Virus record (IMG/VR): IMGVR_UViG_3300026116_000098
Location: 1-23,231 of that record
Direction: 5' to 3' (one strand)
Origin: a virus
DNA: 23,231 nt
In this document: positions 4,261-20,413 of the stretch, piece after piece
Layout: the number at the start of each line of letters is the position of its first letter
How positions within the stretch are numbered: position 1 is the stretch's first letter
Notes under the pieces: generated by a model
Database searches by the model: none
What the model was told of the DNA's origin: nothing
The model's input: the letters and a program-made list of their open reading frames with translations, nothing else
Position numbers and translations under genes: made by a program

Positions 4261-5427
4261 ATGTTTCGTACTTATAAATACCGTATCTATCCAACTGCTG
4301 AGCAAGCGGAGTTAATCAACAAACATATTGGTTGCGTAAGATTTGTGTATAATTTAGCGTTGGAAACTAAGATAGCGGCATACAAAAGCAATAAGGTTAA
4401 CTTGACAGCTTTTGATTTGATAAATCAGTTACCGGAATTAAAAAAGGAGTATTTGTGGTTAAAAGAAGCCGGCTCTCATTCATTACAACAATCAATAATA
4501 AATCTAGACAAAGCGTACAAATATTTTTTCAAAGGCGCAGGGTTTCCAAAGTTTAAAAAGAAATCAGGCAAACAATCTTTTAATATTCCTGTTAACGTGA
4601 AGGTAATTGTTGATAAATTAATTATCGCTAAGTTTCAAGAGGGAATAAAAATAAACCTTCACCGACCAATAAAAGGGGGTATAAGGCAGGCTACAATTAG
4701 CAAAACATCTACAGGTAAATATTTTGCATCTATACTTTGTGAAACAAATACACCGATACCCGAAAAACAACCTATTAAAGAACAAACAACAGTAGGCATT
4801 GATTTAGGTCTTAAAACTTTTCTTGTAACCTCCGATGGCAAAGAATATGCTAATCCTAAATATTTACGTGATGCAATGAGCAAATTAAAGTACGTGCAAC
4901 GTAGGTATTCAAAATATAAAGGAAAGCGCACAAAACACAGATTGACCGTATTGCATGAAAGGATTGCTAATAAGCGTAGAGATTTTTTACACAAAACTTC
5001 AAGCGAACTAATCAATAACCACGATAGTATAGCGATAGAAGATTTGAATATACAAGGCATGATGGCAAACCATAAACTCGCTGGAGCTATTGGTGATGTT
5101 GCCTGGGCTTCCTTTGTAACTATGCTGGAATACAAAGCGGAATGGTACGGAAAGAATATTTTACGAATTGGTCGTTTTGAGCCTAGTAGTAAAACGTGTT
5201 CTGTATGCGGCACAATTAACAAAGAGTTATCGTTATCCGACCGCGAATGGATTTGCAGTTGCGGCTCTATACTTAATCGTGATGTTAATGCTGCCATAAA
5301 TATTAAAATTTTCGCACTTAAAAATTTAAATGTGTCTAGAACGGATACTCAAACTTGTAACGAGCTGCCCTGTATTAATAAGGGAGTGTTGACTTACGAA
5401 GCCCACCCGCCTTTAGGCAAAGGGTAG
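4261..5427 (+). CDS. tnpB: TnpB RNA-guided nuclease (IS200/IS605 family, lone)
   Basis: A full-length 388-residue TnpB, a transposon-encoded nuclease guided by omega-RNA. The N-terminal helix-turn-helix/WED region starts MFRTYKYRIYPTAEQ. The RuvC active site is complete: D181 in GIDLGLKTF, E260 in IAIEDLNIQGM, and D341 in NRDVNAAINI. The zinc finger has C313, C316, C332 and C334 (CSVCG ... CSCG). The C-terminus EAHPPLGKG is of the kind encoded by the omega-RNA scaffold. There is no TnpA transposase, so this is an IS1341-like, tnpB-only element. It lies 26 bases after the operon upstream and converges on the DGR operon. It could be a mobile insertion or a gene kept by the phage. Confidence 0.93.
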   Translation: MFRTYKYRIYPTAEQAELINKHIGCVRFVYNLALETKIAAYKSNKVNLTAFDLINQLPELKKEYLWLKEAGSHSLQQSIINLDKAYKYFFKGAGFPKFKKKSGKQSFNIPVNVKVIVDKLIIAKFQEGIKINLHRPIKGGIRQATISKTSTGKYFASILCETNTPIPEKQPIKEQTTVGIDLGLKTFLVTSDGKEYANPKYLRDAMSKLKYVQRRYSKYKGKRTKHRLTVLHERIANKRRDFLHKTSSELINNHDSIAIEDLNIQGMMANHKLAGAIGDVAWASFVTMLEYKAEWYGKNILRIGRFEPSSKTCSVCGTINKELSLSDREWICSCGSILNRDVNAAINIKIFALKNLNVSRTDTQTCNELPCINKGVLTYEAHPPLGKG

Positions 5428-5522: not shown

Positions 5523-5735
5523 TTATACCCTGTCTGCGTCACCATTGTTTAATTTGACTATTCTTTTATCTAACAACAATTGTTGCACCTCTTTTTCTGT
5601 TTTCACTTTAATATTTCCTTGTTTATCAGCAAACTCGTATGTTCTGTTACTCCACCAAGTAACACGATATTGTACGTTTTTAACCAAAACATCACAGTTA
5701 TGCGGAAGGCGGGGGAATATGCGTTCGTCACCCAT
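5523..5735 (-). CDS. small hypothetical protein, last gene of the DGR operon
   Basis: A 70-residue protein. It starts two bases after the stop of the 102-residue gene, so it is the last gene of the DGR-strand operon. The sequence alternates short beta-like stretches (CDVLVKNVQYRVTWWSNRTYEF, NIKVKTEKEVQQLLLDKRIVKLN), suggesting a small SH3/Tudor-like barrel. It is of a size and type found among phage proteins, but I do not recognise a family. It converges with tnpB on the other strand, with about 95 bases between the two stops and no clear hairpin terminator in that gap. Confidence 0.6.
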   Translation of the reverse strand: MGDERIFPRLPHNCDVLVKNVQYRVTWWSNRTYEFADKQGNIKVKTEKEVQQLLLDKRIVKLNNGDADRV

Positions 5736-5737
5736 AA

Positions 5738-6046
5738 TTACGAAAATGAAAACCGTTTGTTGTCTTTAATTATTTTAGTTTCAAATGGAAATCCATCCTG
5801 TGGTATTTGTTGCACTTGATCTATGAGTATGTTTGATACAGTGAACAAAACGTGAAATGTTTCATTAATAGATATCTGAAGATGAAGGCATTTATTCCTT
5901 CCTTTGTCTTTAGGGTATTTTGAATCTACAATTCTGAATTTGTAAACTTTTATAGTTGTATTGAAAACTTCATCCATATCAATCCTTTTCCCAACATAAG
6001 CAGACGAGGCCGTGTCTATTCCAAAATCTTTAAACTGTTTTGTCAT
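5738..6046 (-). CDS. candidate DGR accessory protein (unknown, overlaps the RT gene)
   Basis: A 102-residue protein whose ATG lies 17 bases inside the end of the reverse transcriptase gene, so the two are translationally linked. The chain is beta-rich: IKVYKFRIVDSKYPKDKGRNKC, LHLQISINETFHVLFTVSNI, then a charged IPQDGFPFETKIIKDNKRFSFS ending. The conserved-looking LFTVSNILIDQVQQIP and FPFETKI parts recall a small family I remember from Bacteroidetes phages and prophages, possibly OB-like. It is not an Avd protein, which is a four-helix bundle. The placement suggests help to the reverse transcriptase or cDNA, but this is inference. Confidence 0.6.
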   Translation of the reverse strand: MTKQFKDFGIDTASSAYVGKRIDMDEVFNTTIKVYKFRIVDSKYPKDKGRNKCLHLQISINETFHVLFTVSNILIDQVQQIPQDGFPFETKIIKDNKRFSFS

Positions 6047-6992
6047 GTAATAATTTTTTTAATAAGTGTTTACTATTACAATGCTTTGCCCATCCATAGT
6101 ATGAATTAATTGAAGCGTCGTTTCTTCTGTTGGCAAGCATTCTTGCAAAACTCTGTTTAATTTTTTTCCTCAGAAGCGTGTGCGTGTGAAAAAACACATA
6201 CCCAACAAAATCAACTCCGCGAGCTACAACCGGAAACACTTGATAATTATCCTTAACGGTAAGTTTCAAGTGTTGTATTAAATAGTCTGCTATATCACTA
6301 CGAAGTTGGTGCAAATACAATTTACTATCCGAGAAAACAACGATATCGTCAGCATATCTAAAATAATGCTTTACACGCTTTTCTTCTTTAATCCAATGGT
6401 CAAAATAGGTAAGATAAAAGTTTGCGAAGAACTGACTGAGATAGTTGCCGATAGGTACACCATTCGTACTGTCAATAATTTCATCCAATAACCATAATAA
6501 ATCTTGATCTTTAAATTTTCTCCTTAATAAGGATTTTAAAACAGCGTGGTCAATATTTGGATAAAACTTCTTTATGTCCAGTTTAAGACAATATGTTGTG
6601 CCCTCCACATCTTTTAATGCCACCTTAACCGATCGTGCTGCCCCATGTATCCCTTTATGTTTTATGCAGCTGTAAGTGTCTGTTGTAAACATGTCGGTAA
6701 ATATCTTTTCCAAATTATTCATTATTGCATGATGAGCAATTCTATCTGGAAAATATGGTAAACGAAACACTTCCCTCTCTTTGGGTTCATAAATTAAAAA
6801 TGTGGAGTATGGGGAAGTTTTGTAAGTTTTATTGATAAGCATTTGTTGTAGCTTTAATAAATTACCTTCTTTATCCCTATCAAAAACTTTAATGCCGTAT
6901 TGGTCCGCTTTTCCTTTTCGGGCTTTCGCATCAGCAAGAATTAAATTTTCCATGCTGTAAATTTTTTCGTAAATATTATTTTTTCTTTTCAT
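6030..6992 (-). CDS. DGR reverse transcriptase
   Basis: A 320-residue reverse transcriptase of the diversity-generating type. It would copy the nearby template-repeat RNA into cDNA with errors at adenines. Motifs in order: LKLDIKKFYPNID (136-148, first catalytic Asp 139), VPIGNYLSQFFANFYL (179-194, with the IGxxxSQ form that marks DGR enzymes in place of the usual QG), YADD (213-216) and GVDFVGYVF (259-267). The length fits DGR enzymes, which have only fingers, palm and a short thumb. The ATG at 6992 (MKRKNNIYEKIY) is chosen; an upstream in-frame TTG at 7133 would read through the template repeat and is rejected. It follows the TR by about 105 bases and overlaps the next gene by 17. Confidence 0.95.
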   Translation of the reverse strand: MKRKNNIYEKIYSMENLILADAKARKGKADQYGIKVFDRDKEGNLLKLQQMLINKTYKTSPYSTFLIYEPKEREVFRLPYFPDRIAHHAIMNNLEKIFTDMFTTDTYSCIKHKGIHGAARSVKVALKDVEGTTYCLKLDIKKFYPNIDHAVLKSLLRRKFKDQDLLWLLDEIIDSTNGVPIGNYLSQFFANFYLTYFDHWIKEEKRVKHYFRYADDIVVFSDSKLYLHQLRSDIADYLIQHLKLTVKDNYQVFPVVARGVDFVGYVFFHTHTLLRKKIKQSFARMLANRRNDASINSYYGWAKHCNSKHLLKKLLHDKTV

Positions 6993-7057
6993 GCTTTGCT
7001 TATCAGAGGTCGCGCTCACTTTCGTTACTAACACCCTATTCTTTAATCGTTGTTTTT

Positions 7058-7072
7058 TGCCATGAAGGCAAG
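7058..7072 (-). other. small hairpin between TR and reverse transcriptase
   Basis: On the minus strand, TTGCC-TTCAT-GGCAA forms a perfect five-pair stem with a five-base loop, followed by AAAACAACG. It lies within the expected template RNA, 3' of the TR and before the reverse transcriptase start. It could be a structural part of the template RNA or a weak attenuator. There is no U-run on the transcript, so it is not a standard terminator. Confidence 0.3.
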
Positions 7073-7096
7073 GTCTGTATTGGTAATTTTTTTCCC

Positions 7097-7168
7097 GCAT
7101 AGGTGCGAGCTGCAATTCGTATTCGTGTTCCAATTATCGTAATTCGAGTTCGAGAAGCTGACACCTGA
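7097..7168 (-). repeat. DGR template repeat (TR)
   Basis: A noncoding stretch between the last target gene and the reverse transcriptase, read on the minus strand. It carries many AAY codon-like triplets (aac, aat) and aligns without gaps to a segment in each of the three target genes. In the 67-base core (7102-7168) there are 20 adenines on the coding strand; 16, 15 and 17 of these differ in VR1, VR2 and VR3, and only one non-adenine mismatch is seen. This is the signature of adenine-specific mutagenic retrohoming. Beyond 7097 the match stops (TR has GGG where the VRs have other bases). Confidence 0.95.
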
Positions 7169-7203
7169 ACACCACAGCTCTTCCAATGCACAACCTTATT
7201 AAT

Positions 7204-7584
7204 CTATTTCAGTAAAAAATGGTCTTTGCATATTTCGGGAAATTGTTCCTGTATATACATTGCCAATTCAGACGATTTAAGCAAATGGCGCGAGCCGCAA
7301 CCCGTACGCGTGCGCCAATAATCGCAAGCCGAGACCGAGAAGCCGACACCCGATGGACACTCATCAGTAGCAGCTATTCTAGGGCACATATTATATTTAT
7401 ATTCATCATAATCATTAAAGTTGGGTTCCCAACCGTCATTATGCGCCTTGCAAATTATAGCTATTTTAAAATCAGCTATTTGAGATTTTTTATATTCTTC
7501 TGGTAACATTGATACATCTGGTAATGTCCCAGGTGTTAATCCGACTGCTATTTCGCACTCCTCATACGTTTTAAATTTTTTCAT
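7204..7584 (-). CDS. DGR target protein 1 (C-type-lectin-like variable protein)
   Basis: A 126-residue protein without signal peptide. Residues about 1-75 form a conserved lead (MKKFKTYEECEIAVG; KAHNDGWEPNFNDYDEYKYN), followed by the variable segment SGVGFSVSACDYWRTRTGCG (78-97, then SRHLLK), then a helix (SSELAMYIQEQFPEICKDHF). The motif GxxFS...W...CGSR is the variable loop scaffold expected of a C-type-lectin-like fold. The variable residues lie where the TR has adenines. It is the target nearest the TR and the most divergent at the VR end (RHLLK rather than RLCFK). It starts five bases after the stop of target 2 and belongs to the same operon. The ligand is unknown. Confidence 0.9.
   Translation of the reverse strand: MKKFKTYEECEIAVGLTPGTLPDVSMLPEEYKKSQIADFKIAIICKAHNDGWEPNFNDYDEYKYNMCPRIAATDECPSGVGFSVSACDYWRTRTGCGSRHLLKSSELAMYIQEQFPEICKDHFLLK
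7287..7353 (-). repeat. DGR variable repeat VR1
   Basis: Gap-free 67-base match to the TR core (7102-7168). By hand count there are 16 differences, all at positions where the TR has A on the coding strand: for example aac to gtc, aat to gct, aac to cgc, aat to cgt, aat to ggt. The four adenines kept are in gat, aat (to tat), and the two acg codons. Past the core toward 7281 the match to the TR breaks (VR1 has cat ttg where the TR has cta tgc). Confidence 0.93.
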
Positions 7585-7589
7585 GTTTT

Positions 7590-7970
7590 TTATTGGTTAA
7601 TTAAATAATATTCAACATATAGTTTTTTAAATTGCTCAATGGCATACATAACAAGCTCTCTGTTTTTAAAACAAAGGCGCGAGCCGCAATACGTAAGCGT
7701 GCGCCAAGCACCGTAACACGAGTACGAGAAGCCGACACCCGACGGCTTAGCTTTGGTAGCCTTAACTTCAAACCACGGAAAATATTTATATTCATTAATA
7801 TCGCTCCAGTTAGGCTCCCACCCTTCATTCAAGGCTTGCGTAATAATGATAAGTTTGTAATGAGCCAACAAAGCTTTACGATGTTTTTCTGGAATTGCCG
7901 AATAGTCTGGCAAAGTGGGTTTAATTTTTAATGCCTTGCAAGCACCTTCAAATGTTTTTATTTTTTTCAT
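7590..7970 (-). CDS. DGR target protein 2 (C-type-lectin-like variable protein)
   Basis: A 126-residue paralog of its two neighbours. Shared blocks: KTFEGACKALKI near the start, ITQALNEGWEPNWSDINEYKY (about 44-64), SGVGFSYSCYGAWRTLTYCG (77-96) with SRLCFK after it, and the closing helix (NRELVMYAIEQFKKLYVEYY). Like target 1 it begins at the KTFE block and lacks the N-terminal 40 residues of target 3. There is no secretion signal. The variable residues fall at TR adenine positions. It starts seven bases after the stop of target 3. Another frame over the same bases (75 residues) is a shadow. Confidence 0.9.
   Translation of the reverse strand: MKKIKTFEGACKALKIKPTLPDYSAIPEKHRKALLAHYKLIIITQALNEGWEPNWSDINEYKYFPWFEVKATKAKPSGVGFSYSCYGAWRTLTYCGSRLCFKNRELVMYAIEQFKKLYVEYYLINQ
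7676..7742 (-). repeat. DGR variable repeat VR2
   Basis: Gap-free 67-base match to the TR core with 15 differences by hand count, all at TR adenines (aac to tac, aat to tgt, gat to ggt, aat to gct, aac to cgc, aat to ctt, aat to tat and others). A further A-to-T change (cta to ctt) lies just outside the core. Codons 5' and 3' of the diverse centre match VR3 closely. Confidence 0.93.
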
Positions 7971-7977
7971 GATATAT

Positions 7978-8463
7978 TTATTTGGTGGTTAAAAATTGAT
8001 TATATATGTCGATAAATTGTTTCCCCGCGTAAGTCGCTAGCTCAGATGATTTAAAGCAAAGGCGCGAGCCGCAATACGTAGCCGCGGCCCAACCACCGCA
8101 ATCCGAGCGCGAGAAGCCGACCCCCGACTTATAGTTGCTGAAATAAGGATAGTATTTATATTGGCTACTGTCTGCCCAATCTGGTTCCCAACCCTCGTTT
8201 AACACACGGGCAATAATTGAAAGTTTAGCCATTGCTTGAGCGCCAAGCATATCTTTATCAATTCCATTGTACTTTAACAGAATATCTACATTATCGTGAT
8301 GGCCGACTTCATTGTAAGCGTCTTCAAATGTTTTAATACGATCTGTTATTTTTTGTGAAAAGAAATCCTTGCCCCAATTGGCTTCTAGCAGCTCTTTAAA
8401 TTCAAGGGATGCTGTTTTGTAGAGTTCTCTTGCTTTGCTATCTTCTAGTTGTAGTGTTTTCAT
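7978..8463 (-). CDS. DGR target protein 3, full-length (C-type-lectin-like variable protein)
   Basis: The first gene of the DGR operon, 161 residues from the ATG at 8463 (MKTLQLEDSKARELYKTA); a longer open frame to 8535 is rejected because it would run through the promoter. An N-terminal part of about 40 residues, ending ...SQKITDRIKTFEDAYNEVG, is absent from targets 1 and 2. Then come IIARVLNEGWEPDWADSSQYKYYPYF, split here as a conserved lead, SGVGFSRSDCGGWAAATYCG (113-132) with SRLCFK, and a final helix (SELATYAGKQFIDIYNQF). I recall proteins with this layout as common DGR targets in Bacteroides elements. There is no signal peptide, so it may act in the cytoplasm or be carried in the virion. 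Confidence 0.92.
   Translation of the reverse strand: MKTLQLEDSKARELYKTASLEFKELLEANWGKDFFSQKITDRIKTFEDAYNEVGHHDNVDILLKYNGIDKDMLGAQAMAKLSIIARVLNEGWEPDWADSSQYKYYPYFSNYKSGVGFSRSDCGGWAAATYCGSRLCFKSSELATYAGKQFIDIYNQFLTTK
8056..8127 (-). repeat. DGR variable repeat VR3
   Basis: A 72-base gap-free match to the TR (7097-7168). In the 67-base core 17 of the 20 TR adenines are changed by hand count (aac to cgc, aat to gat, gat to ggt, aat to ggt, aac to gcc, acg to gcg, aat to gct and others), plus one non-adenine difference (ggt to ggg) close to the 5' edge on the coding strand. The three extra bases tgc at the 3' edge match the TR exactly, making this the longest of the three VR matches. Confidence 0.93.
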
Positions 8464-8487
8464 TATTATGTTTTTAAAGTTAGACCA

Positions 8488-8519
8488 CAAACGTAAACAA
8501 TATTTTACATATCCGCAAA
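8488..8519 (-). promoter_or_regulatory. Bacteroidetes-type promoter of the DGR operon
   Basis: Read on the minus strand, TTTG (8519-8516) is followed after 20 bases by TACGTTTG (8495-8488). This matches the TTTG / TAnnTTTG promoter of Bacteroidetes sigma factors, at normal spacing. The start of transcription would fall near 8480, some 17 bases before the ATG of target 3. It overlaps a GTTTACG sequence that is also found in the forward promoters at 8568 and 17443. Confidence 0.65.
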
Positions 8520-14918: not shown

Positions 14919-17423
14919 ATGACCCACACGATTACCGTTTACAAGAACCTTTCCCCCACAGCTATTCCATATCACAAAAGTGTGTTAGTTGCACTTGAAA
15001 GAATACGCTCTGGAGCTGACTTGAAAATAGTTAACGCTATTCGTTTGGAGCCGGATAAAATAAAGCAAGCAGAGCTAAAGAAAAATTTAACCTCGTTCGC
15101 ACTGTCCGGCAAATTTTCTCACCGCTCCTCTTCCGGACTTATATCGCACAGCGGCCTGGTCTGTATTAGTATGGAGTTTGAAAACGAAGAAGAGCTTTTG
15201 CTACATCGCAGAGCCTTTTTGGAAAGCAAAGAAAAGGCAAAATATACATTTGCTTTATTTAAAAGCACTTCAAATTTAGGCTTAAAAGCCCTCATTAAAA
15301 TCCCAGCAGAAGAGAAGTATCATAAACTTTATTTTGCTGCACTGAAAGAGTCCTACAATAATCCATATATGGAAACCGACGAGCCGGATGTGTCGGCCCT
15401 AACATTCTCCTCTTATGATCCTGACCTGTATTTCAATCCAGACAGTGATACATGGATGGAGAAAGATGAAAACGAAGCTTTCGACCTTTCGGAAAAAACG
15501 CCAATATTAAAATTACGGGCTGAAGTAGGAGTGGTCTCTAATTTAGAAAAAATATACAACAAAAAATATCCAGGGAAGGAGGGAGAGAAAAAAACAAATC
15601 TTGTAAAGTTTTGCCAGTCATTTAATGAGTTTGGCATAAAACAGACGGAATGCGAAAGGTACATTGTGTCTAAATACAAAGACCTAGTAAAAGAAAAAGA
15701 ACTCTTAACCATCATCCGCAGCGCATATAAAGAGAAAGGGGGCACCAAGTTCTTTGAAGACCAGCAAGCGTTGGATTTATTGGAAAGGCAGATACGGTCC
15801 GGTGTGGAAACAAACAAAATTTTCAAAAAACTAAACGAAACCGGCGGGCATTCTAAAGAGGATGTTGAGGTAGCAATAGCAAGGGTGTCAAATTCGCTTC
15901 CGATTTCTGAATTTTGGTATTTCACTGATCGTGGCAAGGTGATGATAAGCAATGTGAAGTTTAAAGCGTTTTTAGAACAAAGGGGGTATTATAAATATTA
16001 TCCCGAAGGATCTGAAAATTTTGTATTTATCCACATAGAAAACAATATGGTGCAGGTGGTGAACGGGGACGAAATAAAAAGTTTTGTAACAGACTACTTG
16101 CTCCAACAGCCAAATACAGCGGCGTTTGAATTGATGACCAGTAACTCAAAATATTGGAAAGATGATTATCTCAACTTGATTGAAGAGGCAGATATCAAGT
16201 TTTATGAAGACACCATAAATTCTGGGGTGGTATTTTTCAGGAACGGGGCTGTGGTGCTGAAGACGACGCAAGAAACAATAAAAGAGCAAACAGATATAGG
16301 TATTAAACAAACAATAGTAAAAACAACCAAAACCGAATTGATTGATTACTTCCAATTAGAAGGACACGTATGGAAAGACCAGATTATACAACGGGATTAC
16401 ATAGAATGTGATTTTACTGATTCCGTTTATGGCAAGTTTATTAACCTGGTTGCAGGAAAAGATCTGAAAAGTGAGCTGGCTATACGGTCCACCATAGGTT
16501 ACCTAATGCACAGCTATAAAACGTCGGCCAATAATAAAGCAGTTATATTGAATGATGAAACTATTTCCGATAATCCAAATGGGGGGTCTGGTAAAGGATT
16601 GTATTGTTCGGCATTGGGCCACATTAAAAGGGTAGCAAAGTTGGATTGTAAGCTATTTGATGGAAGCAAAGCGTTTGCCTATCAAACAGTAGATACGGCA
16701 ACGCAGATATTAGTATACGATGATGTGAGTAAAAATTTTAAGTTTGAGAATTTATTTTCCGTCGTTACTGAAGGTATAACACTGGAAAAGAAAAATAAAG
16801 ATGCAGTTAAATTAACAGTTGGGAAGTCCCCTAAAATAATCATCACCACCAACTACACCATCGGTGGTGTGGGCGGATCGTTTGAAAGAAGGAAATGGGA
16901 ACTAGAATTTAGCTCTTACTTTTCAGACAAGCACACTCCTTTTCAGGAGTTCGGGCACCAGCTGTTTGAGGAGTGGCCCGAAGAGGAGTGGAGCCGGTTT
17001 GACAACTTTATGATATACTGTTTTAAGCTTTACCTAGAACAAGGGTTAGTCCGTCAGGAGTTCACCAATCTGGCTGAACGTAAATTTATAAAAGAAACAT
17101 CATTCGACTTCCGCGAGTGGGTTGTTGAAGATCCATTGCCTCTTGATGTTGTTATAATGAAAACTGAATATTTTGAAAAATTTGTGGGTATTTACCCCGA
17201 TTACAAGCATTCTAAATGGTTTGGACAAAAGAAGTTCTCTCAATGGCTGGAAAGGTATGCTGAATACAAAGGGTACAGCTGTTCAACCGGAACCTCCATG
17301 AATTTAAGGTGGATAAAGTATTCTAATAAGTTACGGGAAACACAGGAAACTTTGGATATAGGGCAGCAGGTTGAAGTAGATAATATTACTATAAAAAACG
17401 ATACTGATGAATTTGATTTTTAA
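14919..17423 (+). CDS. BT4734/VirE-like primase-helicase (SF3-type ATPase)
   Basis: An 834-residue replication protein. The N-terminal part (about 1-180) matches the BT4734/VirE N-terminal type found in Bacteroidetes elements (VLVALERIRSGADLKIVNAI; SGLVCISMEFENEEELLLHR; FALFKSTSNLGLKALIKI), thought to be primase-like. The middle is linker and helical. The C-terminal ATPase has Walker A near residues 552-560 (NPNGGSGKGL), an acidic Walker B near 598 (QILVYDDV) and KIIITTNYTIGG near 640, as in phage/plasmid SF3 helicases. It would open and prime DNA during phage replication. The start at 14919 follows a gap of about 70 bases. It probably acts with the TOPRIM primase at 10191. No frameshift seen. 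Confidence 0.88.
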   Translation: MTHTITVYKNLSPTAIPYHKSVLVALERIRSGADLKIVNAIRLEPDKIKQAELKKNLTSFALSGKFSHRSSSGLISHSGLVCISMEFENEEELLLHRRAFLESKEKAKYTFALFKSTSNLGLKALIKIPAEEKYHKLYFAALKESYNNPYMETDEPDVSALTFSSYDPDLYFNPDSDTWMEKDENEAFDLSEKTPILKLRAEVGVVSNLEKIYNKKYPGKEGEKKTNLVKFCQSFNEFGIKQTECERYIVSKYKDLVKEKELLTIIRSAYKEKGGTKFFEDQQALDLLERQIRSGVETNKIFKKLNETGGHSKEDVEVAIARVSNSLPISEFWYFTDRGKVMISNVKFKAFLEQRGYYKYYPEGSENFVFIHIENNMVQVVNGDEIKSFVTDYLLQQPNTAAFELMTSNSKYWKDDYLNLIEEADIKFYEDTINSGVVFFRNGAVVLKTTQETIKEQTDIGIKQTIVKTTKTELIDYFQLEGHVWKDQIIQRDYIECDFTDSVYGKFINLVAGKDLKSELAIRSTIGYLMHSYKTSANNKAVILNDETISDNPNGGSGKGLYCSALGHIKRVAKLDCKLFDGSKAFAYQTVDTATQILVYDDVSKNFKFENLFSVVTEGITLEKKNKDAVKLTVGKSPKIIITTNYTIGGVGGSFERRKWELEFSSYFSDKHTPFQEFGHQLFEEWPEEEWSRFDNFMIYCFKLYLEQGLVRQEFTNLAERKFIKETSFDFREWVVEDPLPLDVVIMKTEYFEKFVGIYPDYKHSKWFGQKKFSQWLERYAEYKGYSCSTGTSMNLRWIKYSNKLRETQETLDIGQQVEVDNITIKNDTDEFDF

Positions 17424-19147: not shown

Positions 19148-20413
19148 ATGAAAGAACAAAAATACATAGCAGTAATGTTTCCTTACCCAAGTGGTAGCGG
19201 ATTGCATTGTGGACATTGGTATAACTACGCTATAATAGATAGCTATTGCCGATACCAAAAATTTATTGGTAACGATGTTTTTCAGCCGTTTGGCTATGAT
19301 GCTTTTGGATTGCCTGCTGAAAATTATGCGAAGCAAGTTGGTAGAGAACCGAAAGAAGTTACCTATGAAAACATTGATAAGTTTCGTTTGCAGATGAAAC
19401 AAATGAATACGGACTTTGAAGAATTGTTGATTACCTCTGACGAAAGCTATCAGAAGCACACGCAATGGTTATTTACAAAACTTTACGAAAAGGGATTGGC
19501 TTACAAAAAAGATGGTGAAGTAGATTACTGTGAAAGTTGCGAAACTGTATTGGCAAGAGAACAGGTTAAAGAAGGTAAATGTGATAGATGCAATTCGGTT
19601 GTAATTAAAAAAACATTGAACCAATGGTATTTCAAAACTACTGCATACAAAGAAAGATTGATTGCAAACTTGGATAAAATTGATTACCCGAAAAGCACAA
19701 TAAATGCACAAAGGGCTTGGTTGGAAAACTTGCACGATTGGTGTGTAAGCCGACAAAGAAAATGGGGTTGTCCTATTCCGATTGAAGGCGAAACAGATAC
19801 AATGGACACATTTGTTGATAGTAGCTTCTATTTCATCATTTACTGCTTGATTAAAGGCATAAAACCAAAGCCAGTTGATTTGTATGTAGGAGGAAGTGAA
19901 CATGCCTGTATGCACTTGATTTACGCAAGGTTTATTACAATGTTCCTTTACGATATTGGCTTTATAGATTTTGAAGAACCATTTACAAAAGTTATTCATC
20001 AGGGAATGATTTTGAATAATGGCGAAAAGATGAGTAAGAGCAAAGGTAATGTAGTGAACTTGGATAATTACGATAGCGATGAAATTCGTTTTTACTTAAT
20101 GTTCATCGGACATTACTTTGATGGTGGAAGTTGGAGCGACCAAAACATAAATGGAATACGCAGATTTATTGGCAAGATGAAAGAATGGATGAGCCGAACA
20201 GGAACAGAAACTATTGATATGGTTAAATTCAAAAAACAAGTATTTGCCTATACTGAAAGTTTCAAATTTAACAAAGTAGTAAGTTCATTTATGATTTTGT
20301 TGAACGAAAATAAGAGCAAGAATTTGACTGATGAATGCAAACAGGAAATAGTTGCAGTATTAAGTATTTATATGCCGAATGTTTTTAACCTTTTACATTT
20401 TTGCAAAAAATGA
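19148..20413 (+). CDS. compact leucyl-tRNA synthetase-like protein without CP1 editing domain
   Basis: A 421-residue class I synthetase, about half the length of bacterial LeuRS. It has the HIGH motif as HCGH (PYPSGSGLHCGHWYNY), a zinc-binding insertion (CESCETVL ... CDRCN), the tRNA-leucine-type WYFKTTAYKERL, then AQRAWLENLHDW running directly into CVSRQRKWGCPIPI. In normal LeuRS the CP1 editing domain sits between those two segments. Then come TMDTFVDSSFYF, VGGSEHACMHLIYARF and KMSKSKGNVV. The helical anticodon part is short and the C-terminal domain is missing. It could charge tRNA without editing or activate leucine for another use. It lies alone inside the inverted repeats and was probably acquired as a cassette. 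Confidence 0.88.
   Translation: MKEQKYIAVMFPYPSGSGLHCGHWYNYAIIDSYCRYQKFIGNDVFQPFGYDAFGLPAENYAKQVGREPKEVTYENIDKFRLQMKQMNTDFEELLITSDESYQKHTQWLFTKLYEKGLAYKKDGEVDYCESCETVLAREQVKEGKCDRCNSVVIKKTLNQWYFKTTAYKERLIANLDKIDYPKSTINAQRAWLENLHDWCVSRQRKWGCPIPIEGETDTMDTFVDSSFYFIIYCLIKGIKPKPVDLYVGGSEHACMHLIYARFITMFLYDIGFIDFEEPFTKVIHQGMILNNGEKMSKSKGNVVNLDNYDSDEIRFYLMFIGHYFDGGSWSDQNINGIRRFIGKMKEWMSRTGTETIDMVKFKKQVFAYTESFKFNKVVSSFMILLNENKSKNLTDECKQEIVAVLSIYMPNVFNLLHFCKK

Follow-up and report, generated by a model that had tools for sequence, protein, structure and literature searches.

A complete DGR was confirmed on the minus strand between positions 5523 and 8519 of a 23,231-nt stretch of virus DNA (IMG/VR record IMGVR_UViG_3300026116_000098, positions 1 to 23,231), here called the window. 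It consists of a single TR, a DGR-type reverse transcriptase (RT), and three VR-bearing genes (Table 1), and this arrangement of one TR with three tandem targets, proposed in an earlier sequence-only reading, was reproduced by both the TR/VR comparison and the RT matches. The 72-nt TR was slid along both strands of the whole window and mismatches at non-A positions were counted. Three places, the VRs, had 1 to 3 such mismatches to the TR, compared to 24 at the next best place, and all three VRs sit inside open target genes on the same strand as the TR. The RT motifs IGNYLSQ and YADD correspond to the xGxxxSQ-type motif of the DGR clade and the YxDD active site. The protein matched Pfam RVT_1 (E = 2e-16) and phrog_1423 (E = 1.5e-126), its best PDB match was 8ub7, 'Reverse transcriptase' (E = 1e-45, full-length coverage), and it was 35% identical to BPP-1 Brt over residues 2 to 306 (E = 1.6e-52). 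The site that had been called a clear promoter is favorably placed, lying 25 nt ahead of the first of the three targets, but its pattern occurs near chance frequency in the window (3 matches versus 2.1 expected), so it is the position that argues for a promoter.

Table 1. Features of the DGR locus in window coordinates
Feature	Position	Strand	Remarks
Promoter-like site, TTTG-N20-TACGTTTG	8488-8519	-	Bacteroidota -33/-7 type; upstream of first target
Target T3	7978-8463	-	First in transcription order; 'long' paralogue, 161 aa; ATG start
VR of T3, 67-nt core	8061-8127	-	TR/VR comparison
Target T2	7590-7970	-	Second; 'short' paralogue, 126 aa; ORF
VR of T2, 67-nt core	7676-7742	-	TR/VR comparison
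Target T1	7204-7584	-	Third; extra 'short' paralogue, 126 aa; ORF
VR of T1, 67-nt core	7287-7353	-	TR/VR comparison
Structured RNA element enclosing TR	7048-7195	-	RNAalifold, pair counts, covariance model
P1 5' arm	7183-7195	-	
TR, 67-nt core	7102-7168	-	16 interior and 4 edge adenines; full TR 7097-7168, 72 nt
P1 3' arm	7072-7083	-	
Hairpin P2	7057-7071	-	
DGR reverse transcriptase	6030-6992	-	320 aa, ATG ORF; IGNYLSQ, YADD; Pfam, phrog, and PDB matches
Accessory protein A	5738-6046	-	102 aa; overlaps RT stop; conserved beside RT
ORF	5523-5735		No conservation among the relatives searched

Target proteins and their genomic setting

The targets belong to an ancient, conserved pair of long and short paralogues that lies outside the structural module, a pairing missed earlier. 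T3 matched phrog_11581 (E = 1.6e-29) and grouped with the 'long' targets that lie upstream in relatives. The targets had been described as small, lacking signals, and placed among early rather than tail genes, and this was borne out: no membrane or export signals were found in them, and the early placement proved to be lineage-wide. In 16 (pro)phage loci, the neighbors of the cassette were MuA/MuB, DnaB, primase, and exonuclease genes upstream and methyltransferase genes downstream, and no tail genes were among the common neighbors. A target homologue in phage BI-TP1, which has no DGR adjacent to it, likewise lay among methyltransferase and PAPS-reductase genes. Because the target model had a pLDDT of only 56 to 61 in the VR and gave no significant PDB match, the target fold is unproven; its viral matches are uncharacterized. 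A CLec fold around the VR is at most possible: the VR was modeled at low confidence, and the part of the targets that aligned to tail-target profiles was the 28-residue VR hairpin (hhalign, 28 columns, probability 94.6). We propose that the products are small soluble proteins in which an alpha-helical body would bear a hypervariable hairpin.

Phage DGRs are generally read as tail-protein tropism switches. The targets described here are most likely intracellular, host-directed binders, and our tentative proposal, which may well be right, is that this DGR lineage diversifies soluble early-expressed proteins inside the host (counter-defense or takeover binders), relies on a dedicated OB-fold protein instead of Avd, and has a TR-enclosing RNA fold of its own. 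An ordinary tropism switch, with the targets acting as virion or tail-tip receptor binders and their early-region place being incidental, is unlikely. Tail proteins are indeed diversified by closely related RTs that share the RNA element, and their C-terminal hairpin has a homologue in the VR hairpin of the targets, but outside this hairpin the two groups have no common domain. In the 16 loci, moreover, the targets lie between replication/transposition and methylase genes, away from tail genes, and the BI-TP1 homologue likewise has methyltransferase genes around it. It is quite unlikely that the targets instead act in the lysogen, for example in superinfection exclusion or as repressor-like regulators, and are diversified to keep up with competing phages. 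Many cassette copies do occur in integrated prophages of Flavobacterium, Pedobacter, Elizabethkingia, and Dyadobacter, anti-repressors are found among the cassette neighbors, and two paralogues are retained, as expected for heteromers; against this, searches of the targets gave no match to a DNA-binding domain. The targets were also kept in a phage lacking RT, TR, and A (L016), a persistence that fits any useful role. If these proteins, hypermutated by a lineage found across Bacteroidota phages, do act intracellularly, targeted protein diversification would also serve inside the infected cell, which points to host factors to seek.

RNA element and putative accessory protein

The sequence-only reading had missed both an RNA structure around the TR and gene A, which adjoins the RT gene and is conserved across relatives. 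In 60 cassettes, RNAalifold recovered the P1 and P2 stems unaided, 95.9% of cells were paired compared to 82.6% after shuffling, and both-side changes numbered 146 compared to 33. A predicted RNA stem and hairpin enclosing the TR is thus supported by covariation. The covariance model, R1, scored 135 bits (E = 4.5e-28) on the window, which was among its training sequences, and detected the element in 15 DGRs whose targets are different (E <= 2.2e-8). The element was detected in the crAss-like phages cr55_1, cr52_1, and cr115_1, while R1 gave no match in BPP-1 and an Rfam search gave none either. A third helix seen in the window fold, pairing the 3' edge of the TR with a segment upstream of the TR, was rejected, as its mean best run was 5.3 versus 5.0 when shuffled (maximum, 5.33).

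In the model of A (pLDDT 87), a single helix is set between beta strands. None of its PDB matches fell below an E value of 0.001, and OB folds (HIN, RuvBL, RPA) recurred among the top ones, so that A is perhaps OB-fold-like. The Avd family, by comparison, is a four-helix bundle. A had no match to the bAvd profile (PF22296), and bAvd was found neither in the window nor in 12 relatives, with BPP-1 as the positive control (E = 2.2e-37). Neither A nor the targets fell into a Pfam, NCBIfam, or PADLOC family, and a single-sequence search with A gave no match. When 396 Bacteroidota genomes were searched by A alone, it was present in 6, and every one of the 6 copies lay beside a DGR RT. A goes with the RT lineage for early-protein targets and for unrelated tail-protein targets alike, occupies the usual place of Avd in some loci (L020 and L200), and in hankyphage p00 forms a C-terminal fusion with the RT. 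Avd is common but not universal in DGRs, and published work also admits analogues (PMC10743442). We infer that A stands in for Avd. The OB-like model and the frequency of single-stranded-DNA-binding proteins among early genes would also suit a general phage protein of that kind, present in the early region by chance and no part of the DGR, but this is very improbable given the consistent linkage to the RT described above and the overlap with the RT stop codon. Together, A and the RNA suggest that an unrelated protein can take over from Avd; they also make the lineage easily recognized and testable.

Adenine sites, activity, and proposed mechanism

Over the 67-nt VR cores, 16, 15, and 17 of the 20 TR adenines are changed, and the only non-adenine mismatch is a T to G in VR3; 48 of the 49 mismatches therefore fall at TR adenines. 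These counts agree with those made earlier but are inflated by four edge adenines. The latter are G in all three window VRs and nearly invariantly G in relatives, and so they are fixed TR/VR differences that cannot be counted as diversified. Of the 16 interior adenines, 12, 11, and 13 are changed, and the total of 36 of 48 (75%) matches the prediction of full randomization. At positions 0 and +7, every pair with a TR adenine had a G in the VR (198 of 198 and 214 of 214, respectively), so that VR and TR differ at their 3' edge, as IMH and IMH* do. RT sequence context was rejected as the sole cause of the edge changes, since an interior CAC at -15 keeps its A in 73 of 143 pairs while the edge CAC at +7 always has G (214 of 214). 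Protein selection was rejected as the whole cause, since the adenine at -55 falls on the third base of a codon (TCA/TCG in the window) but is still G in 101 of 106 cases, an argument weakened by varying VR length, which makes this position not strictly homologous in all cassettes. The fixed bases may mark where mutagenesis or transfer stops. No consistent structure resembling the BPP-1 stem-loop was found right after the VR (229 VRs; mean z, -0.45).

The sequence-only reading had named a lack of adenine-site variation, or an even spread of mismatches, as the outcome that would speak against it; in relatives, variation was concentrated at VR adenines. L045 and L154 differed at 21 of 44 VR adenine sites but at 0 of 124 other VR sites, 0 of 86 TR sites, and 0 of 2,039 other sites, and L020 and L017 differed at 23 of 59 VR adenine sites and at 0 of 113 and 0 of 808 sites elsewhere. 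Because the differences between near-identical relatives are almost entirely confined to VR adenine sites, the lineage is active. This activity is that of the relatives, as the closest RT found was 73 to 75% identical to that of the window and no near-identical relative of the window was found. For the same reason no recent change can be seen in the window itself, but that its TR and VRs are old repeats of a decayed element is extremely improbable, because all frames are open, interior adenines are changed at the level expected for full randomization with one other mismatch, and relatives are active.

Taken together, it is probable that this is a working DGR of a Bacteroidota phage in which A serves in place of Avd and the early targets are most likely intracellular. 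The observations behind this are the parts themselves, the RNA covariation, the A-RT linkage, the adenine-restricted variation in near-identical relatives, and the early location. In the proposed mechanism, T3, T2, T1, TR, RT, and A would be read as a single transcript. Sequences flanking the TR would pair across it (P1) and, with P2 behind, present the TR to the enzyme. Presumably aided by A, the RT would make cDNA randomized opposite interior TR adenines, and this cDNA would replace the matching stretch in each target, with the edges probably retaining the target's own bases. The target proteins, made from the early region, would then act in the cell by binding variable host or rival-phage factors, and not serve as tail receptors.

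The BPP-1 DGR (mtd-avd-TR-brt) likewise has a DGR-type RT, adenine-restricted TR/VR differences, differences at the 3' edge (IMH*/IMH), and a structured RNA near the TR, which in BPP-1 recruits the RT (PMC12875486). It differs in having Avd where an unrelated OB-like protein is found here, in its RNA element, in fixed edge differences that are mostly non-A rather than A to G, in a conserved stem-loop after the VR, and in its one target, the tail protein Mtd, compared to three small early-region proteins. The TR-enclosing RNA provides a second RNA architecture alongside that of BPP-1 for comparison. Hankyphage p00 and the crAss-like DGRs share the RT lineage, and the cr55_1 target similarly has a VR hairpin motif ending in GSRL, but both lack a separate A gene and have a single large target, a C-type lectin in hankyphage p00 (PMC6199706) and an annotated tail protein beside tail or lysis genes in crAss-like phages. 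In multi-target DGRs, as here, one TR serves several target genes. Tentaclin cassettes have two, which are C-type-lectin receptor-binding proteins rather than a long/short pair encoded outside the structural module. The three-gene array had been thought exceptional, a view that did not hold: among 148 relatives, two targets per locus are the norm (109 loci) and three are common (19 loci), multiple VRs occur in 28.6% of 948 surveyed DGRs (PMC6642488), and up to eight similar targets per DGR have been cited (PMC10743442).

Layout of the cassette and its relatives

The window, a complete IMG/VR virus record of 23,231 bases whose host field is empty, carries a DGR whose genes are probably read as one transcript. 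When the template repeat (TR) was compared with the window, three places differed from it by 1 to 3 non-A mismatches over 72 nt, while the fourth-best place differed by 24. Within the 67-nt core, 16, 15 and 17 of the 20 adenines were changed in the three diversified copies (VRs), together with one T-to-G change. The closest solved structure to the reverse transcriptase (RT) was 8ub7 (E 1e-45), and BPP-1 Brt was 35% identical to the window RT over its length.

Features of the window; cassette genes in reading order, then other genes
Feature	Position	Strand	Remarks
T3 target	7978-8463	-	161 aa
T2 target	7590-7970	-	126 aa
T1 target	7204-7584	-	126 aa
TR core	7102-7168	-
RT	6030-6992	-	320 aa
Gene A	5738-6046	-	102 aa; start overlaps RT end
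ORF	5523-5735	-	70 aa; within interval of sequence-only reading; no match in any of first 33 related loci
IS605-type TnpB/OrfB	4261-5427	+	OrfB_IS605 and Cas12f1-like_TNB; directly past cassette end, convergent with cassette
phrog_28855 protein	14919-17423	+	834 aa; weak primase/helicase likeness; no NCBIfam family
Leucyl-tRNA-synthetase-like protein	19148-20413	+	421 aa, about half normal length

Target searches yielded 33 viral loci, and from RT searches the best 80 of 356 viral loci were taken along with 80 genome loci, mostly from Bacteroidota (Flavobacterium, Pedobacter, Elizabethkingia, Dyadobacter, Chryseobacterium and others). VR-bearing targets numbered two in 109 loci, three in 19, one in 19 and four in one, with some of the one-target loci shortened by contig ends. 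When the targets were placed in a tree, those upstream (median about 154 aa) fell for the most part into one group and those downstream (about 130 aa) into another, with T3 among the long targets and T2 and T1 among the short ones. These counts and groupings indicate that the norm is an ancient long/short pair, to which the window adds one extra short copy. Multiple VRs occur in 28.6% of 948 surveyed DGRs (PMC6642488). In two Dyadobacter loci (L187 and L188), additional same-family targets with good VRs lay at a distance of about 4-9 kb from the TR; a single TR thus serves scattered targets in addition to tandem ones. In another related locus, L210, two VRs lay in a single open frame of about 286 aa (6928-7788) that resembles a fusion of a long and a short target.

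Variation at adenine sites

The sequence-only reading would have been refuted by a lack of variation at VR adenine sites or by mismatches spread evenly over other positions, and in the relatives it withstood this test. Near-identical cassettes from different records differed almost exclusively at VR positions opposite a TR A. Loci L045 and L154 differed at 21/44 VR adenine sites, 0/124 other VR positions, 0/86 TR positions and 0/2039 positions elsewhere, and the corresponding values for L086 and L087 were 22/69, 2/195, 0/90 and 1/2332. L020 and L017 differed at 23/59 VR adenine sites, the remaining counts being 0/113 and 0/808. L016, which has lost the A-TR-RT segment and kept both targets, differed from L020 at 1/59 VR adenine sites. 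Compared to L020, L016, L014 and L017 are natural losses of this segment that left both targets in place; the L016 junction lies a few bases from the stop of the last target.

Edge and interior adenines were compared across 119 loci, which gave 229 distinct TR-VR pairs; positions are counted from the VR codon that encodes the glycine of GSRL. The repeated block spanned about -57 to +10, its non-A bases matched near-perfectly between TR and VR, and interior TR adenines gave rise to all four bases. At the edges, a TR A was opposite a VR G at position 0 (198/198), +7 (214/214), -48 (120/128) and -55 (101/106). The four edge sites of the window were G in all three VRs, and when these were set aside 36 of the 48 interior sites were changed (75%), which is the value expected under full randomisation of every interior adenine. 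The edge sites probably let this RT lineage tell template from target in an IMH*/IMH-like manner.

RNA element and accessory gene A

The TR is enclosed by an RNA element in which its flanks can pair as a stem, P1 (5' GGU-UG-N8 with 3' N8-R-ACC), followed by a hairpin, P2 (UUGCC-N4/5-GGCAA). With the P1 arms located without use of complementarity, all eight N8 pairs were formed in 78 of 97 cassettes (mean 7.70, versus 5.99 with shuffled partners). In 60 aligned cassettes, 95.9% of cells paired versus 82.6% when shuffled, both-side changes occurred in 146 cells versus 33, and sliding the partners abolished the signal. Unaided, RNAalifold returned the same two stems. With a covariance model, 15 loci that carry targets of other types scored E 2.7e-16 to 2.2e-8, and three crAss-like phages gave weaker matches (E 1.5e-5 to 2.5e-6). 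TR sequence likeness contributed to these scores, but P1 and P2 did form there, from different bases. BPP-1 did not match the model, and an Rfam search gave no match. As far as could be checked, the P1/P2 architecture is undescribed; the principle is already known, since a structured spacer recruits the RT in BPP-1 (PMC12875486).

Gene A was linked to the DGR RT: the viral set had 96 matches for 100 RT loci, and A was present in 71/73 genome loci whose RT was at least 53% identical; both loci lacking it (L218 and L228) are interrupted by contig ends. A search of 396 Bacteroidota genomes with A only gave six matches, all adjoining a DGR RT; one of the six, G020, was itself the chosen centre. 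A accompanied both same-family targets and large tail-protein targets (L192-L205, L211, L217), and was found either behind the RT or between target and TR, the place taken by Avd, the accessory protein of the BPP-1 DGR. In hankyphage p00 the A domain is the RT C-terminus (residues 330-422, 55 bits). In the A model (pLDDT 87), strands and helix followed the OB-fold order strand-strand-strand-helix-strand-strand; Foldseek gave no match below E 0.001, and OB folds (HIN-200, RuvBL, RPA) recurred among its best matches, all with E > 0.001. Neither the window nor any of 12 relatives matched bAvd, which was detected in BPP-1, the positive control. We infer that A substitutes for Avd, perhaps handling RNA or cDNA.

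Target proteins and their genomic setting

The targets matched no family in Pfam, NCBIfam or PADLOC and belong to phrog_11581, whose function is not annotated. No membrane segments or export signals were found in the window targets by a hydropathy threshold, which 6 of 266 targets exceeded, none from the window. The AlphaFold target model had an alpha-helical body (pLDDT about 90) and an irregular VR region (pLDDT 56-61), and had no significant match in the PDB. Against the tail-target profile of related DGRs, the VR hairpin alone aligned (28 columns, probability 94.6, E 6.7e-8), and phrog_11581 matched a related-DGR tail protein at residues 449-487 only, indicating that the hypervariable hairpin is common to both while the carrier is different. 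The targets may be a reduced CLec variant.

Because of their location, size and absence of signals, the targets most likely bind variable host or rival-phage factors inside the cell. The main rival is a role in the virion. Related crAss-like and Bacteroides DGRs adjoin genes for tail and lysis functions, and the proteins they diversify are tail proteins. Neighbours were tallied for 16 (pro)phage loci among the 25 commonest families listed, from which a rare tail gene could escape: those upstream included MuA-type transposase, MuB, DnaB helicase, primase, exonuclease and anti-repressor genes, and those downstream included DNA methyltransferases, PAPS reductase and DnaB. In Mu-like phages, head genes lay beyond those downstream neighbours, often on the other strand. 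The window, with a DnaG-like primase, an XerC/D-like recombinase and a RadD-like helicase on the other strand, agreed with these loci, and phage BI-TP1 carried a target homologue among methyltransferase and PAPS reductase genes with no adjacent DGR.

Elsewhere in the window, the leucyl-tRNA-synthetase-like protein matched TIGR00396 in four stretches below the family cut-off (E 2.9e-110) and kept HCGH and KMSKS; judged by its sequence, it is a putative compact phage-encoded LeuRS.
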